Origin: Fibrobacter sp.
GTDB taxonomy: Bacteria; Fibrobacterota; Fibrobacteria; Fibrobacterales; Fibrobacteraceae
Length of the DNA stretch: 64,000 nucleotides
Assembly: GCF_017551775.1 (NCBI RefSeq)
Contig: NZ_JAFZKX010000019.1
Span: 1 to 64,000, forward strand
Direction: 5' to 3'
The notes under the pieces are model-generated. The model made no database searches, was not told the DNA's origin, and saw only the letters and a program-made list of their open reading frames with translations. Positions 11,593 to 24,340 of the stretch are shown in pieces (the stretch's first letter is position 1; each line of letters starts with the position of its first letter). Made by a program: the position numbers and the translations under genes.

Positions 11593-14500
11593 TTACTTGT
11601 TCTCCTCGAAGTTTTCAACTTGTTCCATGACTTTGCTGAAAACTTCGGGGCTGTATTGTGGCGGGTAGCCGTTTTTCACTAGGCAAATCTTGATGTCAAG
11701 CTTTAACTGATTGCGGACATTCTGATTGTTAAGCCAGTCGGCAAACGATGACTTGGTATCAATGATTTCTTTTACCTTCTTTGCCAAAGCCTTGCATTTT
11801 TCATTTATAACAACGCCATCAATTTCCTTGTCTTCGCCATATTCAAAATTGTATTGGTCACGAAGGGCAAGCAAAATATCATAGAAAGCTTTTTCTTCAA
11901 AGGTAAGCCCAATCTTGCGGAAACTTTCGCGATTCTCATTCATCTGGCGTAAAATTTCAAGAGCCTGCGCAGTGGCGTTCTTGATAATTTCATCAGATGC
12001 ATGTTCCTGCGTTTCGCCAGCTTCTTCGGCAGAAAGAGTTTTGCGCCGTTCGTGATATTCAGCGATAGTCCGTTCAAGCATTTCCTGGAACGACTGTGCC
12101 GCAATTTGGTTTATTTTTCCAAATTCCTTGATTTGCTTGCGAAGCATTTTCACCAAAAGTTCAAGCTTTGTCGCAGGCATCTTGACATCGGACAGTTTCT
12201 CATAGAATTCAGGACCGAAGATATTCTCTTCTTCGCCATTATCAAGAATGCTTTCCACCTTGTTGTACTTAAGCGCCTCTTCCACCATTTTGGCGACATT
12301 TCGGTTCATGGTATCAGTGTCAATATCACTCGTTCCACTCATTTTACGAACAAAGCCTGCAATAGCCATAAAGCATTGAGCCAGCGCAGATTCTTCTTCG
12401 CTCAAGTTTCCTGACGGAGAGCAGACATCAAACGCCATGCGCATACGCTTTACCACCTGCAAGAAATAATTCTTGAAAGAAACCTTTTGCGGCTTGTGCG
12501 CCCCATTTTGGCTTTCAGAATTGAGTTCCTGCGTAGAGGTAAATACATATTCCGCCGCTTTTGCTAACAACATGTACCGTTTTGCAGGGTCACAATTCGG
12601 ATCTAAGAACGGTGAAACGTCGTAATCGACAAACAATCTCTTCAAGATTTCAAGTTCTTCCCTGAAAACAACCGTCGCCTGCTCCACATCGTCAACTGTC
12701 GGGGCAACAGAGGAATCACCGCCATAGATTTTCATCGCTTCACGCATATTGTCGCGAATGCCGATATAATCCACAATCAACCCGAAGTCTTTCCCCGGAT
12801 TCTTACGGTTCACGCGACTTATGGTCTGGATAAGCATATGCTTTTTCAGCGGCTTGTCATTGTACATGTATGTAAGGCAGGGAACATCAAACCCTGTAAT
12901 CCACATATCCACAACAATAACAATATGGAAATTCGACTTTTCCTCTTTAAAAGCGGCATCCATATCTTCGGAACGGGAATCGTTCTTGACACCCCCAAGA
13001 TAATCATACATTTCTTTGGGGTCGTTGCTCCCGACACTAGAAACCATTGCCATAAACGGCATAGGCTTCAATTTTTTCAGTTCTTCTTCCGTCGCCACGA
13101 CGCCATCAGGCGTTTTCTTTTCCACAAACCATTCCGGATACTTCGCCTTGAATTGAGTCAGCAAAGCATAGGCAATCGGGCGAGAAGAACAAACCACCAT
13201 CGCTTTCTGAACCCTTTCGGGGTCCCCAGCACAACTAGATACATAATGGTCGTGAATATCAACGGCAAGGCGTTCCAAACGGGCGGGATCACCAAGAATC
13301 ACTTCCATGGAACTCATCGCCTTTTTGCTTGCCTGAATATCTTCGGCTGTAGCGCCATCTTCGGCGCATTTTTTGTAGTAATCTTCGATTTCCTTGGCTT
13401 TCGCCTCATCTAGCAGGACCTTTGCTATTCGCGGATGATACTTAATAGGAACCGTCAACCCATCTGCAACAGCTTGGTCCATCGTGTAGCGGTCAATTTC
13501 ATCACCAAAGGTCTGATATGTTTCTGCAATCGGCGTACCGGTAAAGCCAACGAAAGTTGCATGCGGGAACGCTTCGCGCAAAACCTTTGCATAAGGCTTC
13601 GAAAGCATAGCCCTCATGTTTTCGTCAACATCTTTGCTGAACTGAATTTTCTTGGAATGTTCCAGTTGCGTGCGGTGTGCCTCATCCGAAAAACAGATGA
13701 TATTTGCGCGGTCATTAATCAAACCGATTTTATCATCTTCGCGGTCACAAAATTTCTGGATAGTGCAGATGTAAAAACCACCGCTTTCACGTGCACCCAA
13801 TTCTTCACGCAGCATTGCTCGGTTCTTAACCACCTCAACAGCACCGAGATTCAAGAATTCTGTACTCTTGGTAAAGAGTTTTGCACCCTGTTTTTGCAAT
13901 TCTTCGCGATCTACAATCATTACGATTGTCGGAGAGCCGATTTCCGGGATATCGGAACAACGGAGAGCCAATTGACGCGCCAAAAACGCCATCGTATAGG
14001 TTTTGCCGCATCCTGTAGCACCGAAATAGGTGCCGCCCCTGCCACTTTTTTCAACGACAGACTTGACGATGCTCTGTTTTAGCAAGCGCGAAGCAAAGAA
14101 CTGCGGATAACGGCAAACGATTTCTTTTTCATCGTGGTCGTATTCGCTATCTTGGAAATAGATGTAATCGCGGAAGATTTCAAGGAAACGGACTGGGCTA
14201 TAAACGCCTTTTATCATCGCTTCGGTTTCGGCAAAGGGCATTGTTGAAACTTTGTCGCCATCGTTTACGCGTCGCCAAGCGTAAAAGTGTTCGTATGGTG
14301 TACGGACGGTCCCAAGGCGTGTCTTTACGCCGTCAGAAATACATGCCAACGGGCAATAATGCAGAAGGTGCGGGATGTCGCGCCAGTAGCGGATATTGAT
14401 TTGTTTCCATGCGTCATCGATTGTCGCGTTTGCATCGGCAGGATTTTTGAGTTCAATAACGCAAAGGGGCATTCCATTTACATAGAGTAATACATCGGGG

Positions 14501-14925
14501 CGACGATTTTCCTTTTTGCCATTATTGACGTATTCAATCGTAAGTTGGTTGACCACCCGGAAGATATTGTTTTCAGGGTGTTCAAAATCAATTAGCGGAA
14601 TAGCTCTTGGTTCACCATTTTGCGGGGTAAACTGAACGCCATCAATGAGCCAACCATAAAATTTATGAAGCGTTGCAAAATCACTTTCGGCACCCACAAG
14701 GCGAATCGTATCGAATAGTTTTTCGACATCCTCACTGGACAAGTCAGGATTTGTCGTTTTCAAGTATTCCTTGACATCATCGGTATGGAGAACTTCCTTG
14801 ATTTCTTTTCTGGCAAGTTTATTCCCTGGCAAATACAGCCAGCCTTCCGTTTCAAGGAAAGCGATAAAAGCGTATTCATAGTCGGACTCGCAGAAATGCC
14901 CATTGAAGTTAATCAATTTTGCCAT
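11593..14925 (-). CDS. hsdR: Type I restriction endonuclease, HsdR (motor and nuclease) subunit
   Basis: The product has 1110 residues, normal for HsdR. The N-terminal nuclease domain has the PD-(D/E)xK residues in RRPDVLLYVNG and CVIELKNP (about residues 140-165). The superfamily 2 helicase motor follows: Walker A GATGCGKT (about residue 305), the DEAH box in CFSDEAHR, VGFTGTPI, and motif VI in QTISRVNR. The C-terminal region is helical and binds the methylase core. HsdR translocates DNA and cleaves unmodified DNA in complex with HsdM and HsdS. It is the last gene of the operon, starting 2 bases after hsdS. All motifs look intact. Confidence 0.97.
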   Translation of the reverse strand: MAKLINFNGHFCESDYEYAFIAFLETEGWLYLPGNKLARKEIKEVLHTDDVKEYLKTTNPDLSSEDVEKLFDTIRLVGAESDFATLHKFYGWLIDGVQFTPQNGEPRAIPLIDFEHPENNIFRVVNQLTIEYVNNGKKENRRPDVLLYVNGMPLCVIELKNPADANATIDDAWKQINIRYWRDIPHLLHYCPLACISDGVKTRLGTVRTPYEHFYAWRRVNDGDKVSTMPFAETEAMIKGVYSPVRFLEIFRDYIYFQDSEYDHDEKEIVCRYPQFFASRLLKQSIVKSVVEKSGRGGTYFGATGCGKTYTMAFLARQLALRCSDIPEIGSPTIVMIVDREELQKQGAKLFTKSTEFLNLGAVEVVKNRAMLREELGARESGGFYICTIQKFCDREDDKIGLINDRANIICFSDEAHRTQLEHSKKIQFSKDVDENMRAMLSKPYAKVLREAFPHATFVGFTGTPIAETYQTFGDEIDRYTMDQAVADGLTVPIKYHPRIAKVLLDEAKAKEIEDYYKKCAEDGATAEDIQASKKAMSSMEVILGDPARLERLAVDIHDHYVSSCAGDPERVQKAMVVCSSRPIAYALLTQFKAKYPEWFVEKKTPDGVVATEEELKKLKPMPFMAMVSSVGSNDPKEMYDYLGGVKNDSRSEDMDAAFKEEKSNFHIVIVVDMWITGFDVPCLTYMYNDKPLKKHMLIQTISRVNRKNPGKDFGLIVDYIGIRDNMREAMKIYGGDSSVAPTVDDVEQATVVFREELEILKRLFVDYDVSPFLDPNCDPAKRYMLLAKAAEYVFTSTQELNSESQNGAHKPQKVSFKNYFLQVVKRMRMAFDVCSPSGNLSEEESALAQCFMAIAGFVRKMSGTSDIDTDTMNRNVAKMVEEALKYNKVESILDNGEEENIFGPEFYEKLSDVKMPATKLELLVKMLRKQIKEFGKINQIAAQSFQEMLERTIAEYHERRKTLSAEEAGETQEHASDEIIKNATAQALEILRQMNENRESFRKIGLTFEEKAFYDILLALRDQYNFEYGEDKEIDGVVINEKCKALAKKVKEIIDTKSSFADWLNNQNVRNQLKLDIKICLVKNGYPPQYSPEVFSKVMEQVENFEENK

Positions 14926-14927
14926 GA

Positions 14928-16046
14928 CTATTCCTCCAGCGAACCTTTGATAAGGATTGGGCAGATATCCTTTATCTGTTGTTTTAACTGTTCGTTAATG
15001 CGTTTGCGTTCGTTATAGACTTTGTAAATGTTGGCGATTGATTTTTGAACATTGATATCTGGAATGGGAATTTTAACAGAACACATTTCCGACCAATCAA
15101 ATGTTTCACGAGCACTACCCCATGAATTAAAACGAGCGTAACGATCAAATTCATTTCGAGTAAAAAACATCATTAGATATTGCGGATTAAGCAAATCCAC
15201 ATCTTTAATTCTAAAAACGGTGTAAATAGACGAGACTAAACAACTTTCATTTGAATCATTAAAACCCAAAGCTACTTTATCACCTCGACGAGAAGTGTCT
15301 GCAACATAAACAAATTCATTTTGTTTTACTACTTTATAATTTTTCAAGCTAACACCTAGCATATCAGCTTTAGTATCTATAAAACTTTTTTCGGTTGATA
15401 TTCCTCGTAAATTTTCAATATTCAGTTTTTCATCATCATTCCGCAAATCACTAGGTTCAAGATATTTTCCAATTTCCTGTTTGTCACATTCTTTTTTCAA
15501 TTTATCTAAAAAGGCATCGCAGGTAAGTTTTAAATCATCAAGACCTTGTTCGTAGGATTTCTGGTTGGCAACCATCGACTCATAGATGTCTACATACTTT
15601 TGCTGTACTGTTATATCAGGAAGCGTGATGGATATATCACACATGTCTTTTATACTAAATTCAGGCCTTTGACTTCCAAAATTTCTAAACGTGACTTCTC
15701 TGCAAAATTCTTTACGACGAAAATAAATGAACAAATATGTCGGATCAATAAGTTTTTTTCCTTTTTCATTCAGATAAAATATTTGATATAAGTGAGATAC
15801 TATGCACAATCCACTAGTACGATACGCTATGGAACCTAATTCTAATCGCGTTGGATTATAAACAAAAGCTCCATTTTTCACAATTTTATAAGGCTTTAAA
15901 TCGACCTCAATTGGATTGCCCTTTGGTGATGCAAACACGCCCTGAGTATTTACACCTTCTATCAAATCCATTCCGTATTTCTGATCTCTGTTATTTATCG
16001 TCGATCGTTCAATCAATTCACCTAGCTTATACTTCTTCAGAGCCAT
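14928..16046 (-). CDS. hsdS: Type I restriction-modification specificity subunit HsdS
   Basis: The product has 372 residues with two target-recognition domains of about 170 residues, each followed by a conserved helix (KSYEQGLDDLKLTCDAFLDKL and NERKRINEQLKQQI regions). Each domain ends in an ITLPDITVQQKYVDIY or IPIPDINVQKSIANIY motif typical of HsdS. It determines the bipartite DNA site of the enzyme. It lies 12 bases after hsdM and 2 bases before hsdR. The gene is the most AT-rich of the three, as expected for a fast-exchanging specificity gene. The recognised sequence cannot be predicted from these data. Confidence 0.95.
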   Translation of the reverse strand: MALKKYKLGELIERSTINNRDQKYGMDLIEGVNTQGVFASPKGNPIEVDLKPYKIVKNGAFVYNPTRLELGSIAYRTSGLCIVSHLYQIFYLNEKGKKLIDPTYLFIYFRRKEFCREVTFRNFGSQRPEFSIKDMCDISITLPDITVQQKYVDIYESMVANQKSYEQGLDDLKLTCDAFLDKLKKECDKQEIGKYLEPSDLRNDDEKLNIENLRGISTEKSFIDTKADMLGVSLKNYKVVKQNEFVYVADTSRRGDKVALGFNDSNESCLVSSIYTVFRIKDVDLLNPQYLMMFFTRNEFDRYARFNSWGSARETFDWSEMCSVKIPIPDINVQKSIANIYKVYNERKRINEQLKQQIKDICPILIKGSLEE

Positions 16047-16058
16047 AACCCATCCCCA

Positions 16059-17675
16059 CTATTCAATGCCAAAACCAATGTTCTTAAACGCCTTTACTAG
16101 CATTTCCTGGCTCTGTTTTTCCGTAGCGAGCAAGGTTTTCATCTCACCTTGAATCCGCTTCATTTCTTTCTTGTAGTCAATATCCAAGTCGTGGTCTATA
16201 AATTCGATATACTTGCTTGGCGTAAGCGCCCAGCCTTTTTCTTCAATTTCCTTAATCCCTACACTACGATAAAGTTCCGGTACAGCATAGTTCGCGTCAT
16301 CGGTTCCTTCATTTTGCCAGGTATGGTAAATACTCGCTGCTTTTTCAATTTGTTCTGTAACAAGGATTACCTTCTTCTTGTTTTCGTTCTTGACTGGATT
16401 TTCTGTCCATTGCCGCAAATCCATAAAGAGAATTTCGTGTTTACGGTTACGGAGTTTTCGACCTTTATATTTTCCACCATTCTTGTTCTGGTTCAAGATC
16501 CAAAGCGTCACACTGATATCCGTGGTAATGAATAATTCTCGCGGCAGAACAACAATCGCTTCAACTTTATCATTCTGAATGAGTTTTTTTCGGATTTCCA
16601 CCGTATCTTCGTCATTCAAGGCGCCGTTTGCAAGCAAGAACCCCGCCACACCATCAGACGGCTTCAAGTGCGATAGCATATGCAAAATCCAGGCATAGTT
16701 GGCGTTGCTCTCCGGCGGCGTATCATAATCCGCCCAACGAGCATCATCTTTCAAGTTGTCATTATACCAACCTTTAAGGTTAAACGGCGGATTCGCCATG
16801 ATATAATCAAAATAAACACCCCTATGCAAATCATTTATAAAAGTAGAGTCATTCGTGTCACCCAGATGGTGGCTCAAACCGCGCAAAGCAAGGTTCATCT
16901 TTGCAAGGCGGTAAGTAGCAGCATCCTTTTCTTGACCATAGATATTGATACGGTTGATATCCCCCTGCTTGGACTTGACCAGTTCCGCACTCTGGATAAA
17001 CATGCCGCCCGAACCGCAGCACGGGTCGTAAAGTGTACCGTCGTAAGGTTCAATCATCGATGCAATCAGTTGAACAACATCGTGCGGCGTGTAGAATTCG
17101 CCTTCTTCCTTGGTGGCGTTCACCGCAAATTCTTTCAGGAAATATTCATAGACACGACCGATGAGGTCTTTTTCTTCGCCAAAGGTCTTATGGCTAATCT
17201 TGTTCACCTCGTCCACTAGTTTCTTAATGTCGTTAGCCGCAAGGTTGCGAGTCAAGAACGTTCCTTCAACAAAGCAGCCTTTTAGGTCTTTTGAGTCGGT
17301 CGCAATGCTATGCAGGGCAGCATCAAGCGCAGAGTTCAGTTTTGGAGCCGGAGTATTGATGATATTCGACCAACGAGCTTCGGGGGGCAGATTGTAAGTT
17401 CCATCGGCAAAAGAAACATCTTCAAAGAAGGCTGTTCTGATATTTTCATCATCGGGATCAAGTCCCTGTTCAAGTAAAGCCCCGCGCAATTTTGCAACAC
17501 CATCATCGTATTTTTCACCAATGAAGCGCAAGAATACAAGCGTAAGCATCATGTCGCGCTTTTCGAAAAACGAACCTGAATTGCGGGCTGCCCGCAGAAT
17601 GTCTCGACAATTAAAAAGGATATTGTCGATGTTAAGAGCCTTCTCGGTCGCCTTCTTCGCAGCCTTCTTTGCCAT
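16059..17675 (-). CDS. hsdM: Type I restriction-modification DNA methyltransferase HsdM
   Basis: The product has 538 residues. The N-terminal helical HsdM domain (about residues 10-170) is followed by the N6-adenine methylase domain with SAM motif DPCCGSGGMF (about residue 215) and catalytic NPPF (about residue 293). The C-terminal region includes a coiled segment. It methylates adenines in the HsdS-defined site. It is the first gene of the hsdM-hsdS-hsdR operon. A GGAG ribosome site lies 10 bases before the ATG, and a perfect palindrome sits 22 bases upstream (17698-17713). Confidence 0.97.
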   Translation of the reverse strand: MAKKAAKKATEKALNIDNILFNCRDILRAARNSGSFFEKRDMMLTLVFLRFIGEKYDDGVAKLRGALLEQGLDPDDENIRTAFFEDVSFADGTYNLPPEARWSNIINTPAPKLNSALDAALHSIATDSKDLKGCFVEGTFLTRNLAANDIKKLVDEVNKISHKTFGEEKDLIGRVYEYFLKEFAVNATKEEGEFYTPHDVVQLIASMIEPYDGTLYDPCCGSGGMFIQSAELVKSKQGDINRINIYGQEKDAATYRLAKMNLALRGLSHHLGDTNDSTFINDLHRGVYFDYIMANPPFNLKGWYNDNLKDDARWADYDTPPESNANYAWILHMLSHLKPSDGVAGFLLANGALNDEDTVEIRKKLIQNDKVEAIVVLPRELFITTDISVTLWILNQNKNGGKYKGRKLRNRKHEILFMDLRQWTENPVKNENKKKVILVTEQIEKAASIYHTWQNEGTDDANYAVPELYRSVGIKEIEEKGWALTPSKYIEFIDHDLDIDYKKEMKRIQGEMKTLLATEKQSQEMLVKAFKNIGFGIE

Positions 17676-18358: not shown

Positions 18359-19153
18359 TTAAAGAAGTCCATGCTCCTTAAGAATCTTTTCGTACTTGTC
18401 GGCACGTGATTTCGCCTCATCTGCACGGGCCTCGGCCTCGTCGGCTCGTTTCTCGGCAGCATTAGCACGTTCGCGCTCGTTATACACAGCCTCGTCAATT
18501 TCCTGTTGCCAAGTCATATAGCGCTTCCTTGTTTCGTTGTCAGACAGATACCATTGCCGCTGGCGTTCAACAGCCAGCGTCCCCGCGGATGTCGCCTTGT
18601 TTGTCGCGAAGTATTCAAGATACTCCTTGATCGACTTCTCGGCAACATCCCTGTACTTACTGAATATATAAAAATTTTTCCAACATTGATCGCCCAATTC
18701 GTGTTCCGAGCGTCCGATTTCCAGATTCTTGAACTTGTAGACGGGCCGTCCCTGCCTGAAAATGTCGTCCGGGCAAATAAAGATTATGTACTGCTCCTTG
18801 AGGTTGCGGTAGGATTCACCCTTGTTCAAGGCCTCTGAGTCGCACAAGGCCTGGTAGTAGCGGGCGCGTTTCGGCAGTTCATGTGTGTCCTCTATCTGCA
18901 TTTCAATATCAAATGTGCGGACGGTTTCGCCCTTGGGTCCCTGTTCCTTTACGAAGACATCGTATCGAACACCCTTGTTAAAAGGACTACTTTCGGTGGA
19001 TTTCTCCGGTTCGGGTTCCTGAAGGTCAAAAATCTTGATGCCAAGGAGGGCTTCAAGGAACGGCTTCGCGATGTGCTTATGGCTGAACACCAGCGCGAAC
19101 ATGAAGCGGTTCGTGATGGGCAGTTCTTCGAACGGAATGTGGTTCGGTTCCAT
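18359..19153 (-). CDS. Rpn family PD-(D/E)XK nuclease / putative transposase
   Basis: The product has 264 residues from the chosen ATG. It opens with the family motif LPITNRFMFALVF and contains the PD-(D/E)xK core (VRYDVFVKE then FDIEMQIEDTH with the ExQ form). YYQALCDSEAL and YIIFICPDDIF match the PDDEXK_2 family. These proteins are related to RpnA, which stimulates recA-independent recombination. The C-terminal 60 residues form a coiled coil with RADEAEARADEAKSRADK heptads. An upstream ATG at 19174 would add seven residues. The inner ATG is preferred because AAAGGAGC stands 6 bases before it. Such genes are multicopy in Fibrobacter-like genomes. Confidence 0.88.
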   Translation of the reverse strand: MEPNHIPFEELPITNRFMFALVFSHKHIAKPFLEALLGIKIFDLQEPEPEKSTESSPFNKGVRYDVFVKEQGPKGETVRTFDIEMQIEDTHELPKRARYYQALCDSEALNKGESYRNLKEQYIIFICPDDIFRQGRPVYKFKNLEIGRSEHELGDQCWKNFYIFSKYRDVAEKSIKEYLEYFATNKATSAGTLAVERQRQWYLSDNETRKRYMTWQQEIDEAVYNERERANAAEKRADEAEARADEAKSRADKYEKILKEHGLL

Positions 19154-19202
19154 TATGCTCCTTTGTACGTACATGGCTGTCCGTACCTTTAGTCGTTAAA
19201 CA

Positions 19203-19260: not shown

Positions 19261-19333
19261 GTGAGCGAATGGCCAGTTGTTCGCTAGCCAATGTTAATAT
19301 AGCAAATGAATCGAAAGAAAAACCAAATCGGTA

Positions 19334-19368
19334 AAGGAAAGGCGCACCGGAAAACCGATGCGCCTTGT
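19334..19368 (-). terminator. Terminator of the B12-uptake operon
   Basis: A 10-bp stem with one mismatch (GGCGCACCGG/CCGATGCGCC) lies about 30 bases after the stop codon of the lipoprotein gene. On the minus strand it is followed by a weak T-rich stretch. Confidence 0.55.
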
Positions 19369-19396: not shown

Positions 19397-20881
19397 TTAT
19401 TCCACGATTTCGACTTTCTTGGCGCTGAGTTCCTTCGTATCGATGGAAGAAATCGTAGAACCGTCCGTGAGGGAAATCTTGCGGATTTCGGCAACGTCAT
19501 ACATAACGACCCAAGCAGTGTTGTTGTCAATGGCAACGATGTCCCAGGGATTGACCTTGTCTTCAAAGGCCTGCTGCCAAGCAACAGTCTTGGCGGTTGT
19601 ATTTACCTTCGAGATGCTACCCTTACCCTTGCGGTCAAGCACGTACAATCCACCATTGACCCCTACGATTTTTGTATCGGTCGAGAAGGGAATGTTATTG
19701 TCACTGAGGCAAGAACCTTCTTCTTCATCTTCTTCAATCCAGTAAAGTTTGCCTGCGTTAGCAAAATCGCTGATATAGACAAATATCTCGCCGCCTGCAA
19801 CGACAATACCAGCGGGCTGATAGCCCATCTCATCATCATAAAGGGCGGTGAGCTTCTTTCCATTATACGCGTACGCCACCATGGGGGTCAAATCAAAGAG
19901 GGATCCGCGGTCACCGATATAGGCAAGTTTCATTTTACTGTCATAGTAAATAGAACCGCTGGCATCGACAATGCCATCAATTTTCTTCACCGACTTGCTG
20001 GTCAAATCAACTTCGACAGCAGGGACATCTTGGTAGGCCCTGTAAACAGCAACATATGCCGTGCCAGAAACCTTGTCAACATCCATCATATACGCGCCAC
20101 CGCCAAGCAGCGTACCGCTCACCCAAAGTTCAGACTTCTTGTTCTTCAGGTCAATCTTTTCGATACCGCGGTTTTCATCGGCATCAATACCCCATGTGAC
20201 AGGATTGTATTCGCCCTGAGTACCCACATAAAGCGAGCCCTTCACCATCTTGATGGCCTGCGGGTTCTTGGTCACAAGCGGAATCGTATCAAGAAGAGTG
20301 CCATCGCTCAGTTTGAACAGGGCCACGAGACCATTCTCGTACTTCAGCAAGGACGAACCATCCGAATAAGAGCGCTGGAACACGGCGAACAGCGTGTCGC
20401 CAGAGACTTCGAGGTCGGCGGCGTTCGGCGTTTCAGAGAGGTAAGTAATTTTCAGTTCGACGGAGCTGCTGGACTGCACTTCTTCGGAAGAGCTGCTCAC
20501 CACTTCGCTGGAAGAAGACTTCGCTTCGCTGGAGCTGGAGTTTGCGGAGCTGCTAGAGTTAGCCTTTTCAGAAGAGCTCGACTTGGCGGAGCTGCTGGAG
20601 TCCTTCTTTTCCGAGCTGCTGGACTTGTCGTCTTTCGCGCTGGAGCTGGACGTCGCCTTGCCCGAGCTGCTGGACTTTGCCTTGGAAGAACTGGAGGACT
20701 TGGCCTTCACAGAGCTGGAACTTTCGTCATCGTCGGAATCGCTGCTGACGATGTCATCTTCCAGACATTTCCCATCTTCAAGACAGGTCACGCTGGCGCC
20801 CGAACCGTTGTCGTCACCGCAAGCGCTCATGAAGAACGCAAGCGACATAGAAGCGAGTAATGTGAGTAGTTTTTTATTCAT
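19397..20881 (-). CDS. Beta-propeller lipoprotein, possible BtuG-like cobalamin-binding surface protein
   Basis: The product has 494 residues. The signal peptide ends in a lipobox (FFMSACGDD), so the mature protein is lipidated at that Cys. Residues 45-150 form a low-complexity Ser/Lys/Asp linker with many SSSS runs. The remaining 340 residues are short beta-blade repeats (YVGTQGEYNP, YVAVYRAYQDVP, YIGDRGSLFD, FVYISDFANAG, WVVMYDVAEIRKIS) like YncE-type seven-bladed propellers. The gene lies 42 bases after the riboswitch-controlled TonB receptor, on the same strand, with an AGGAAG ribosome site. In Bacteroides, BtuG is a propeller lipoprotein that caps BtuB and binds B12. The same arrangement here suggests an equivalent role. 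Fold and linker are seen; ligand is inferred. Confidence 0.75.
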   Translation of the reverse strand: MNKKLLTLLASMSLAFFMSACGDDNGSGASVTCLEDGKCLEDDIVSSDSDDDESSSSVKAKSSSSSKAKSSSSGKATSSSSAKDDKSSSSEKKDSSSSAKSSSSEKANSSSSANSSSSEAKSSSSEVVSSSSEEVQSSSSVELKITYLSETPNAADLEVSGDTLFAVFQRSYSDGSSLLKYENGLVALFKLSDGTLLDTIPLVTKNPQAIKMVKGSLYVGTQGEYNPVTWGIDADENRGIEKIDLKNKKSELWVSGTLLGGGAYMMDVDKVSGTAYVAVYRAYQDVPAVEVDLTSKSVKKIDGIVDASGSIYYDSKMKLAYIGDRGSLFDLTPMVAYAYNGKKLTALYDDEMGYQPAGIVVAGGEIFVYISDFANAGKLYWIEEDEEEGSCLSDNNIPFSTDTKIVGVNGGLYVLDRKGKGSISKVNTTAKTVAWQQAFEDKVNPWDIVAIDNNTAWVVMYDVAEIRKISLTDGSTISSIDTKELSAKKVEIVE

Positions 20882-20923
20882 GGTTGCTTCCTTTTCTGGC
20901 TTTACGCATATTATGCGCGGGGG

Positions 20924-22948
20924 CTAGAACCCCTGTATGAGTGTAAACCTGTATTCCCGACCGGGCGCCGGATACGGCGTGTAGATATTGCGGTAGGTCT
21001 CATCCGAAATATTGTCCACGGCGAACATGATCCTAGTCTTTTTCCACGGCTGCCAAGCGAGCGAGGCGTTATAACGGGCAACGGGGGGCTGCCGCGTAAA
21101 ATTCATGCGGTCGCTGAAAATCCGCGTCCTGTATGTAGCCTGGAACATGGCGCTCAAGTTGTAGGGCAAAAAGAACGTGCCCTCGGCAAAATAGCTGTGC
21201 ACGGGTTCGCCCGGCAGCAGGTTCCCGTTATAGGCCTTGTTCACGCCGTCGTCACGCGGATTCTGGATAGTCCCGCGCAACACCGCCTGGAAGAATTTCA
21301 CCGGACGGCTTTCCAGTTCGAGTTCCACCCCGCGAATAAGCGACTTGTCTATATTGAAGGCCTTCATCAGGTTGGTACTTATAACCCAGTATATTCCATT
21401 TTTTACATGATTTTCGAAATAGGTGGCGCGCAATACCGAGCGGTTCTTCGGGGTCGCAAGCGAGAGGCCAGCGGCAAAACGCAAGGCCGATTCATCCTTG
21501 AGCGTGGGGCTCGAAAGCATCCCCGGATACACGCCGTAGAGTTCCATCAACTGCGGCTGCCTGTAAAATCGCCCGAACGAAACGTTGCCGCCAATCCAGG
21601 AATTTTTCTTCCCGAACTTCGCCTGCACCATTCCCGCAAGGCTCAGGTCACGATCCGTAGCCTCGCTTACAGCGGCAGCGCCCGTAGTCATCAGGACCTG
21701 GCCGCCTCCGATATCGTCGTACGTCTTCAGGATGTTGCCTTCGGCGAACAACGAGAACCAATCCGTAAAGTTGTATTCCGCATTGCCCGCAATGGAACCC
21801 GCGAGGCGTTCCAGGCCAAAGCTCTCCAGCGTGCCGCGCGATTCCCAGAGTTCCGCGCTACCCGCAAGGCGCAAATACGCCTCGAACTTGTCCAGCAAGA
21901 GGTTCGCCGAAACCTCGGGAACCGCCCTGTAGCCCGCAAGCCCGTATTCCCTGAAATCCTTCGAGAGGTAGCCGATTTTATCGAGCGGGTAATACGACGA
22001 AGACGAATTCTTCTCGAACTTGCCGGTAACGCCCGCCGTCAGGAGCAGCACGTCGGCAATAGTCGGGAATTCCAGCCGGTACGCGACCTGCGCCATGTCG
22101 CCCGTAAATTCCGCCACATACGTCTGCAGGTCTTCCAGGCCCGGGTTCCCCGCCTGCGTGTGCATCGCGCTTGCAGACAGAATAGAGAAGAATCCGTTCC
22201 CGTGGAGCATGCGGTACTGGAAGCTGCCGGAATATTCCGTGAATTCCGCGTTCCTGCGCCTGTCCTTAAAATCATCCTCGTCGTTATAGAGGGTGCCGTT
22301 GCGGTTATCGAACTCGTAGTCGTTATCGCTGTGGCGCATGGATGCCGTCGCGGAGAACTGCACGCTGTCCTTGATACCCGCGGAAACCTGTACGGAACCT
22401 TCGAACGTGTTGTGAGAACCGTAACTCGCGATGACGCGCCCCCTCGGGGTCGAACCGCTATGCAGCGCATCCTTGGTCACGAAGTTTATCGCGCCGCCAA
22501 TGCCCGAGCCGCCGAACTTCGCCGGGACCCTGTCCTTGTAAACCTCTATCCTCTCGATGTTGTTGAGGTCGATCGACCCCAGGTCGGCAGCGCCGCCGCC
22601 GGCATCGTTCAGGGGAATGCCGTCGATGCAAATCAGCACGTTACGCGCGGCAATCCCGCGGATGGATACCGTCTGGAAACTGCCCATGCCGCCCTGCTTG
22701 TAACCCTGGATGCCCGAAAGCGACGAAATGACTTCGGAAGCCGAAAGTCCGAGGCCCTCCCAAGCGGAAGGCGAAATTTCCATGTAATCCGTTCCCGGAT
22801 TTTCCGTCTCGGCTATAGCGTAAGATTCGACCTGGGAAACGCCCAAATCCTGCACAGGCCCTTCCTGGGCATGCACGCCATGTGCCGAAGCACACGCAAA
22901 AACAACACCGCACAGCAGCGCGGGCAATTCGGACGATGTCACTCGCAT
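20924..22948 (-). CDS. btuB: TonB-dependent outer-membrane receptor, probable vitamin B12 transporter
   Basis: The product has 674 residues with a signal peptide ending at VHAQ. A plug domain follows (about residues 55-165: EVISSLSGIQGYKQGG, SIRGIAARNVLICIDGIPLND, IERIEVYKDRVPAKFGGSGIGGAINFVTK). The rest is a 22-strand-type beta-barrel ending in aromatic FTLIQGF, as outer-membrane proteins do. The size is close to BtuB. A cobalamin riboswitch immediately upstream on the same strand supports cobalamin or cobinamide as substrate. It is the first gene of a two-gene operon with the propeller lipoprotein. The start codon region takes part in the riboswitch expression platform. Confidence 0.88.
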   Translation of the reverse strand: MRVTSSELPALLCGVVFACASAHGVHAQEGPVQDLGVSQVESYAIAETENPGTDYMEISPSAWEGLGLSASEVISSLSGIQGYKQGGMGSFQTVSIRGIAARNVLICIDGIPLNDAGGGAADLGSIDLNNIERIEVYKDRVPAKFGGSGIGGAINFVTKDALHSGSTPRGRVIASYGSHNTFEGSVQVSAGIKDSVQFSATASMRHSDNDYEFDNRNGTLYNDEDDFKDRRRNAEFTEYSGSFQYRMLHGNGFFSILSASAMHTQAGNPGLEDLQTYVAEFTGDMAQVAYRLEFPTIADVLLLTAGVTGKFEKNSSSSYYPLDKIGYLSKDFREYGLAGYRAVPEVSANLLLDKFEAYLRLAGSAELWESRGTLESFGLERLAGSIAGNAEYNFTDWFSLFAEGNILKTYDDIGGGQVLMTTGAAAVSEATDRDLSLAGMVQAKFGKKNSWIGGNVSFGRFYRQPQLMELYGVYPGMLSSPTLKDESALRFAAGLSLATPKNRSVLRATYFENHVKNGIYWVISTNLMKAFNIDKSLIRGVELELESRPVKFFQAVLRGTIQNPRDDGVNKAYNGNLLPGEPVHSYFAEGTFFLPYNLSAMFQATYRTRIFSDRMNFTRQPPVARYNASLAWQPWKKTRIMFAVDNISDETYRNIYTPYPAPGREYRFTLIQGF

Positions 22949-22974
22949 CGGTCAAACCAGTGGCGCAAAGCGCC

Positions 22975-23200
22975 GATTGGACCCTACAGTTCTTCTGACT
23001 CGGGGATCGCTCTACTTCCAGCACCTTCACACGCGTACTCCCTTTCACGGTTTCCACGCATTGGTTCTTGCTGGTTTCGTCCTCCCTTACAGCGGCGGGA
23101 CCGTTCCCGGATTTGCGCCGCCGGCATCCGCCGGTTTTGCAGCACGGGATTCTCTTACAGGTTTCGCTTTCGCGCCACCTGCAGCTTTTCACGGCATAGG
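22975..23200 (-). promoter_or_regulatory. Cobalamin (adenosylcobalamin-class) riboswitch
   Basis: On the minus strand the leader contains the conserved core GGTCCCGCCGCTGTAAGG (about 23083-23104) and a B12 box form CCGAGTCAGAAGAACTG (22987-23003), in the right order and spacing. The upstream half holds the GCAGGT...ACCTGT pairing and the AGAATCCCGTG segment of the aptamer. A GGCGC/GCGCC hairpin (22962-22974) just before the start codon overlaps a second pairing, CCGAT (22973-22977) with ATCGG (22947-22951), that would cover the ATG. This suggests control of translation initiation. Confidence 0.93.
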
Positions 23201-23214
23201 GCCATTTGTCTAGA

Positions 23215-23243
23215 AATATAAAAAAAGGCGCCCATGTTTTCAA
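23215..23243 (-). promoter_or_regulatory. Sigma-70-type promoter of the riboswitch transcript
   Basis: The minus strand reads TTGAAA (23238-23243), a 17-base spacer, and TATATT (23215-23220). Transcription would start near 23207, just ahead of the riboswitch aptamer. Confidence 0.65.
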
Positions 23244-23323
23244 TAAAATACATTCCGCAAGGAATTTGCCTGCCGCGGCCATTTTTAACGCACGTTTTGC
23301 GTAAAATAGATTATATTACTTAC

Positions 23324-24340
23324 ATGCTCTTTATTTACCAATTTCCAGACTGGACGAATTTCAGGTTCGACTCCGCACGCGTGCTCGACGCGCTCGGCAA
23401 GGCGCGTTTCAGCGAAGGCAGGCTCTCGGGACTCCTCACCTTCGCGGGCACAAAAGATTTCGAGACGGACCTCGTCGTCGAGGACATCGTCGCGAACTTC
23501 GCCATCGACGGAATCCAACTCGACAGCGACTCCGTCCGGGCGGACGTCGCGCTCCGCGCCCAGGGAAGCAGCGCCCACATCCAGAACTACATCGGCGCCA
23601 TAGAGAACTACACGACTCCCCTGTCCCAGGAACGCCTATTCAACTGGCACGGTTCCATGACCGGCGGCAGGACGACTTCGTGGCGGGGCGGTTCAAGCGG
23701 TATCGACGCCAAGGGCGAAGGCCTGAATTTCTCGGGACCGGGGCCGGAACGCCTGCCCGCCGAAACGGAACACTTTTTGCGATGGTTCGAGAACTACCCC
23801 ATGGACGGCACCATCAAGGCGGCCATCGCGCATTTCTGGTTCTTGACGCTGCGGCCTTTCGACAAGGCGAACGGGCGAATCGCGAGGGCCATCACCGCGC
23901 TGCAACTGAGCCGCGCGCAGAAATCCGCACGCATGCACTACGCCCTGAACCGCCAGATTTTAAAGAACCGCGAGGAATACCTCCGCACGCTGAACAGGGC
24001 GCAATGCGGCAACGGCGACCTCACGGAATGGATCCTCTGGTTCCTCGCGCAAATCGTGGAAGCGGTACAGACGAGCGAATCGGCGATTGAATTCGAGACG
24101 CGGCGTTTCCGCTACCTCGCGAGGCATTCGGGAGTGCAGACAACCGAAAGGGAACAGCGGCTCCTGAACGCGGCCCTCACGGGGGAACTCCCGAGGGACT
24201 TCACGGCGAAGGACGTGGCGGCCCTGTTCGGGACAAGCCACGATACCGCGCTCCGCGAAATACAAAGCCTTATAGGGAAAGGGCTCGTTGCCGCCAACAA
24301 GAAGGGCGGGCGCAGCCAGACCTACAGCGTCGTGGAGTAA
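23324..24340 (+). CDS. Fic-fold protein with DUF4172-like N-terminus and C-terminal winged helix; catalytic His replaced by Arg
   Basis: The product has 338 residues from the chosen ATG. The N-terminus (FPDWTNFRFDSARV) matches DUF4172. The Fic core motif, normally HPFxxGNGR, reads RPFDKANGR with Arg at residue 177 in place of the catalytic His. The segment that normally holds the inhibitory S/TxxxE(G/N) motif reads NFAIDG, so the Ser and Glu are also changed. A winged-helix region occupies about residues 275-338 (TAKDVAALFGTSHDTALREIQSLIGKGL). Fic enzymes transfer AMP to target proteins; this one is predicted not to use the normal His mechanism. A TATATT box 6 bases before the ATG and no Shine-Dalgarno support the start. 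The longer frame from 23234 is not preferred. Confidence 0.85.
   Translation: MLFIYQFPDWTNFRFDSARVLDALGKARFSEGRLSGLLTFAGTKDFETDLVVEDIVANFAIDGIQLDSDSVRADVALRAQGSSAHIQNYIGAIENYTTPLSQERLFNWHGSMTGGRTTSWRGGSSGIDAKGEGLNFSGPGPERLPAETEHFLRWFENYPMDGTIKAAIAHFWFLTLRPFDKANGRIARAITALQLSRAQKSARMHYALNRQILKNREEYLRTLNRAQCGNGDLTEWILWFLAQIVEAVQTSESAIEFETRRFRYLARHSGVQTTEREQRLLNAALTGELPRDFTAKDVAALFGTSHDTALREIQSLIGKGLVAANKKGGRSQTYSVVE

Follow-up and report, generated by a model that had tools for sequence, protein, structure and literature searches.

The closest described relatives of the system presented here are the BtuBG complexes of Bacteroides thetaiotaomicron, in which propeller lipoproteins (BtuG1-3) are paired with the TonB-dependent receptors BtuB1-3. 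In BtuG2, receptor loops EL2 and EL11 grip the linker that follows the lipidated cysteine, and this linker has been proposed to act as a hinge (PMC10404256). BtuG homologues were stated to be exclusive to Bacteroidetes on the basis of BlastP searches in 313 human gut genomes (eLife 2018, PMC6143338), and our literature search found no paper joining BtuG with Fibrobacter. A propeller lipoprotein on a TonB receptor is also found in the siderophore piracy system XusAB (PMC13142918). The locus described here lies in a 64-kilobase (kb) stretch of DNA from a rumen-type Fibrobacter sp. (contig NZ_JAFZKX010000019.1, positions 1 to 64,000), hereafter referred to as the window. It contains, all on the minus strand, a cobalamin riboswitch (RF00174), a BtuB-like TonB receptor and a propeller lipoprotein. 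We consider it, with a probability of about 0.8, to be a two-gene corrinoid uptake operon with a BtuG-like lid, and the sole detected riboswitch-controlled cobalamin locus in this genome.

The riboswitch match covers the full aptamer with a score (Table 1) above the RF00174 gathering score of 31.5 bits, and no second match was detected in the 3.2 Mb genome. B12-binding domains, including one of MetH type, are also encoded in this genome. Since the aptamer ends 19 bases from the receptor ATG, control of translation appears likelier than termination; no U-tract terminator was seen between the riboswitch and the receptor start codon. The initial annotation of this DNA, made from the sequence alone, had described a cobalamin riboswitch with a clear promoter. 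The riboswitch stands, whereas the promoter is identified by its position only, as six promoter-like matches were observed in the region and 2.5 were expected; its -10 box reaches into the start of the Rfam match. The 42 bases given in that annotation between receptor and lipoprotein are exact. The two genes share one reading frame and are separated only by a single stop codon plus a short spacer (20881-20924); such same-frame pairs are frequent among the relatives and are also seen in L032, L033, L036, L041, L052 and L088. The terminator-like hairpin listed in Table 1 was absent from the motif scan output of the region.

The arrangement of riboswitch, receptor and lipoprotein is not due to chance, since it recurs across Fibrobacterota. 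A profile search found propeller homologues in 152 of 168 Fibrobacterota genomes, covering 39 of 41 genera; the initial genome search had found them in 98 of 111 Fibrobacteraceae genomes. The RF00174 and receptor searches covered the Fibrobacteraceae plus 40 genomes from deeper in the phylum. A propeller was listed for 136 genomes, and in 128 of these (95 of 98 in Fibrobacteraceae and 33 of 38 in the deeper genomes) a same-strand RF00174 match lies no more than 4.5 kb upstream, compared to a chance expectation of about 0.001 per genome, although some of these matches are weak and some, in a genus labelled g4, are under the Rfam gathering score. The median distance from RF00174 to the propeller is 2.29 kb, which leaves space for the receptor, and in 11 genomes the riboswitch is directly upstream of the propeller. 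In several of the eight exceptions, the riboswitch and propeller are on different contigs. With BtuB-like receptors found throughout Fibrobacterota, the homologues are thus associated with cobalamin genes, an association on which the initial annotation had made its proposal of a Fibrobacterota BtuG depend. In genus g4 (e.g. L076, L075, L083 and L080), the propeller and receptor are split or their order is reversed; the g4 propeller often has an RF00174-like element of its own, with several such elements in some genomes.

Homology to BtuG was detected with a phylum-wide profile, A5, which was built solely from members with unpermuted blade order (see below). The 12 best PDB matches of A5 are BtuG chains (8okv, 8bmy, 8bmx, 8p97, 8puj, 8bn0, 8bai, 8baz, 3dsm, 8blw, 8ptf and 8ptd), with E-values of 1.9e-13 to 3e-10, followed by an archaeal surface-layer propeller at 1.4e-8. 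The entry names of 8okv and 8bmz describe B. thetaiotaomicron lipoproteins bound to cobalamin, the chains in 8blw, 8bmx and 8p97 are partners of BtuB chains, and 3DSM has been named as BtuG2 (PMC6143338). The chains in 8puj, 8ptf, 8ptd, 8bn0, 8bai and 8baz are probably BtuG as well, judging from their names and near-equal scores. Positions 87-307 of A5 align collinearly with residues 101-310 of BtuG2. A second profile, A1, built from members in BtuG order, matches BtuG1 (2e-4) amid other propellers, and eight of 26 members match Pfam DUF5074 (best 5.1e-10), which we take to be a family that includes BtuG. The profile homology, together with the riboswitch and receptor linkage, supports a BtuG in Fibrobacterota, as a remote homologue.

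The AlphaFold2 model of the window propeller is a seven-bladed β-propeller with four strands in each blade (residues 6-58, 60-108, 115-153, 163-199, 209-245, 256-291 and 298-334, propeller numbering), with a mean predicted local distance difference test (pLDDT) of 90.3 and a predicted template modelling score (pTM) of 0.90. It is preceded by a linker of about 128 residues from the lipidated cysteine, 43% of them serine, so that both the propeller and the long Ser linker of the initial annotation are confirmed. The lipobox (FMSAC-GDDNG) gives the protein the N-terminal lipoprotein character of BtuG, and the relatives most often start with CGDDN or CGDDS. The GDD that follows the cysteine resembles surface export signals of Bacteroidota, and surface exposure of the lipoprotein is a prediction.

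In the initial genome search, most relatives matched the window protein in two swapped pieces inside one open reading frame (ORF), such that window residues ~219-342 come first and residues 2-216 second. The pieces are only a few residues apart and show up to 54% identity and one consistent breakpoint. The ORFs, scored against A1, were divided into form A, with the blade order of the window, which is rotated by about 215 residues, and form B, with the order of BtuG. Form A comprises 23 ORFs, that of the window and 22 more; form B has over 60 and takes in all 20 ORFs from the deeper phylum. Rotation of the window propeller by ~195-213 residues raised its single-domain A5 score from 138 to 229 bits, which places it within the phylum profile. 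Members of form A from two further genera responded alike, and two form B controls peaked at zero rotation. In a tree of the rotated propeller domains, form A groups into a single clade (100/100) surrounded by form B, and the receptor tree likewise joins the form A receptors in a single clade. On the evidence of these trees, the BtuG order came first, and a single permutation event took place within Fibrobacteraceae. Three genera, g1, g6 and g11, contain form A. Other members of g6 instead carry form B together with a distant receptor, a pattern that suggests movement of the operon between genera. Propeller blades resemble one another and most of the genomes are draft assemblies, so an unreal permutation, arising from blade-repeat alignment or misassembly, had to be considered. 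Such an artefact is scarcely credible given the identity of the pieces at a single breakpoint, the 23 ORFs of three genera in a single clade, the one rotation optimum near the breakpoint with well-behaved controls, and a predicted fold that closes for the permuted chain with a pLDDT of 90.

In terms of the blades of this model, the chain of form B opens with strand b of blade 209-245 and closes with strand a of the same blade, the usual 3+1 closure, whereas in form A this blade, the ancestral 3+1 'velcro', is now continuous and the ends fall between blades 298-334 and 6-58. Counted in BtuG order, the new ends are located between blades 3 and 4. In the propeller model built without the extra N-terminal strand ELKITY, the C-terminal end lacks structure. 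Since KKVEIV is ordered only in the model that includes ELKITY, a new N-C clasp, in which these two strands would pair, is likely. Because the blade order of the window protein differs from that of BtuG, and relatives outside its clade keep the BtuG order, we name it on its sequence a 'circularly permuted BtuG homologue' rather than a plain BtuG; blade order is a structural feature that lies outside the published BtuG definition. In L089 (G089:C30, 2500-9500), from a genome with 8% contamination, two form B propeller genes are in tandem behind one receptor, indicating that propeller gene duplication occurs. In the textbook route, a circular permutation starts from such a tandem gene pair.

The initial annotation took the linker, being unlike that of Bacteroides BtuG, as a hint that this may be a separate form from another phylum. 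The linker length is 72-162 residues (median 125) in all 23 permutants, compared to a median of 16 in Fibrobacteraceae form B, where seven of 45 have at least 60. A Ser linker therefore does not serve to mark the phylum, and it is the circular permutation that distinguishes the window protein. Since form A arose once, the association between linker and permutation represents a single event. Three deeper-phylum ORFs (L127, L120 and L135) have ~190-230 residues ahead of the propeller, which may represent a linker, an extra domain or reading frame ahead of the true start.

The best PDB match of a receptor profile built from 35 relatives is E. coli BtuB (1.5e-30). The BtuB chains of the Bacteroides BtuBG complexes (1.9e-25 to 1.2e-21) are level with or above colicin and siderophore receptors (1e-22 or weaker) in the same search, and the receptor sequence alone matches BtuB and other TonB receptors. 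The receptor is filed here, from these matches, as BtuB-like. Uptake of another ligand, as in siderophore uptake by XusAB, with a secondary link to the riboswitch, would also place a seven-bladed propeller lipoprotein (XusB) on a TonB receptor (PMC13142918), and the best NCBIfam subfamily score of the single receptor is for a siderophore class. We regard this as distinctly unlikely in view of the riboswitch linkage across the phylum, the preference of the receptor profile for BtuB over siderophore and colicin receptors, and the preference of the propeller profile for BtuG. DUF4374, the family of XusB, is absent from the Pfam scan of the window and from the first 25 families listed for the relatives.

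Several results weigh against the assignment of the locus as a BtuG-type uptake operon. The receptor scored 93.5 bits against the NCBIfam BtuB equivalog TIGR01779, below the cut-off of 599.7. The window propeller alone had no BtuG match by sequence and nothing usable in PDB, Pfam or NCBIfam, and a profile of form A alone was also without a BtuG match. The link to BtuG runs through the unpermuted relatives. In a Foldseek search, other propellers were ahead and the best BtuG was at rank 20 (TM-score, i.e. template modelling score, 0.52-0.55), although sequential alignment puts a permutant at a disadvantage. A fused model of receptor and propeller, obtained by reading through the single TAG between the in-frame genes and with a mostly unpaired alignment, gave a pTM of 0.58, about the value for two undocked domains (we estimate ~0.55 for undocked and at least 0.7 for docked). 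Loop conservation favors neither propeller face (p about 0.6). By a post hoc count, however, many near-invariant polar residues of the propeller (Q22, R23, D177, R178, D225, R270, N59, D255 and N297) lie in the BC and DA loops and at the ends of the b strands of the blades.

Alternatively, the propeller may belong to the B12 operon without catching corrinoid, either as an assembly or gating partner or as a periplasmic lipoprotein. Docking and corrinoid binding are predictions, and no rule for surface export of lipoproteins is established for Fibrobacterota. This role is nevertheless unlikely considering the homology to the corrinoid-binding BtuG1-3, the acidic GDD right after the cysteine, and the g4 propellers with their own RF00174-like elements, some of which score under the gathering cut-off.

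For a corrinoid uptake operon with a BtuG-like lid, the steps can be drawn by homology with BtuBG, and corrinoid binding, surface exposure and docking of the lid are predicted by analogy. At low intracellular B12, the riboswitch would permit expression of the receptor and the surface lipoprotein, and the propeller would catch corrinoid outside the cell. The lipoprotein would then close as a lid over the receptor, whose loops would displace the ligand, and TonB energy would drive import through the receptor. In form A, the tether exits about three of seven blades from its ancestral position, such that the lid may dock in a rotated position or the Ser tether may have replaced the hinge; the long Ser linker may let the lid work despite the relocated tether. 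We tentatively propose, at somewhat less than even odds, that the permutant lid replaced the ancestral form in one lineage with docking and the corrinoid site kept, the tether ~3 blades (roughly 150 degrees) off, a disordered Ser tether instead of the pinned hinge, and the N-C clasp in place of the velcro. The coordinates of the locus and its neighboring genes are summarized in Table 1.

Table 1. Features of the operon and neighboring genes in the window.
Feature	Position	Strand	Evidence or remark
Sigma-70-like promoter, TTGAAA-17-TATATT	23215..23243	-	10/12 consensus bases; consensus only
Cobalamin riboswitch aptamer, RF00174	22968..23216	-	68.8 bits, E 7e-15, full model 1-189
BtuB-like TonB-dependent outer-membrane receptor, 674 aa	20924..22948	-	Pfam: Plug 1.4e-17, TonB barrel 4.1e-15
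Receptor-lipoprotein gap	20882-20923	-	exactly 42 bases
Predicted surface-type lipoprotein (494 aa) with circularly permuted BtuG-like propeller	19397..20881	-	sequence, profile and model
Lipoprotein signal peptide, including the region around the lipidated Cys (MNKKLLTLLASMSLAFFMSAC), then acidic GDD	20816..20881	-	read from sequence
Ser-rich linker, SSSS units	20459..20815	-	bulk of the Cys-to-propeller linker; pLDDT <50 in fused model
Extra N-terminal strand ELKITY	20441..20458	-	strand 803-808 of fused model
Seven-bladed β-propeller, permuted order	19397..20440	-	BtuG-order profile positions ~131 onward first, 1-130 last
C-terminal strand KKVEIV	about 19403-19420	-	strand 1149-1154 of fused model
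Terminator-like hairpin GGCGCATCGG-TTTT-CCGGTGCGCC, then TTTCCTTT	19333..19364	-	found by eye
Type I restriction-modification genes HsdR, HsdS, HsdM	11593-17675	-	Pfam
PD-(D/E)XK transposase-family (PF12784) protein	18359-19174	-	just downstream of operon
Divergent gene, DUF4172 and Fic domains	23234-24340	+	start in ORF list overlaps operon promoter region
Secreted-looking protein, 1062 aa	28372-31560	+	no Pfam match at 1e-5

BtuG-type B12 capture thus appears to extend to a second phylum, one that includes major rumen cellulose degraders, and to be near universal in Fibrobacterota. The strategy of capture by a lipoprotein on a receptor would then be older or more mobile than thought. The permutant is a natural experiment in which the tether has been moved on a lid whose proposed hinge is that tether, and with the relocated tether the model of BtuBG lid opening can be put to a direct test.

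E. coli BtuB, the nearest solved relative of the receptor profile, has no lipoprotein partner in E. coli, and the window receptor is far under the BtuB equivalog cut-off. XusAB shares the pairing of a propeller lipoprotein with a TonB receptor, and differs in its iron ligand and in the DUF4374 family of XusB, of which the window has no match among those listed. The unpermuted Fibrobacterota proteins (form B, e.g. L027, L052 and L126) have the same operon and domain, with segment identities of at most 54% to the window protein, but retain the BtuG blade order, the 3+1 strand closure and a linker of usually ~16 residues. With BtuG1-3 and BtuB1-3 of B. thetaiotaomicron, the window shares a riboswitch-controlled operon in which a BtuB-class receptor adjoins a seven-bladed propeller lipoprotein, and a homology that is remote but significant through the phylum profile. 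The window protein, from a phylum other than Bacteroidetes and a putative corrinoid binder, differs from them in its permuted blade order and in its long Ser linker, where BtuG has a short, pinned one.

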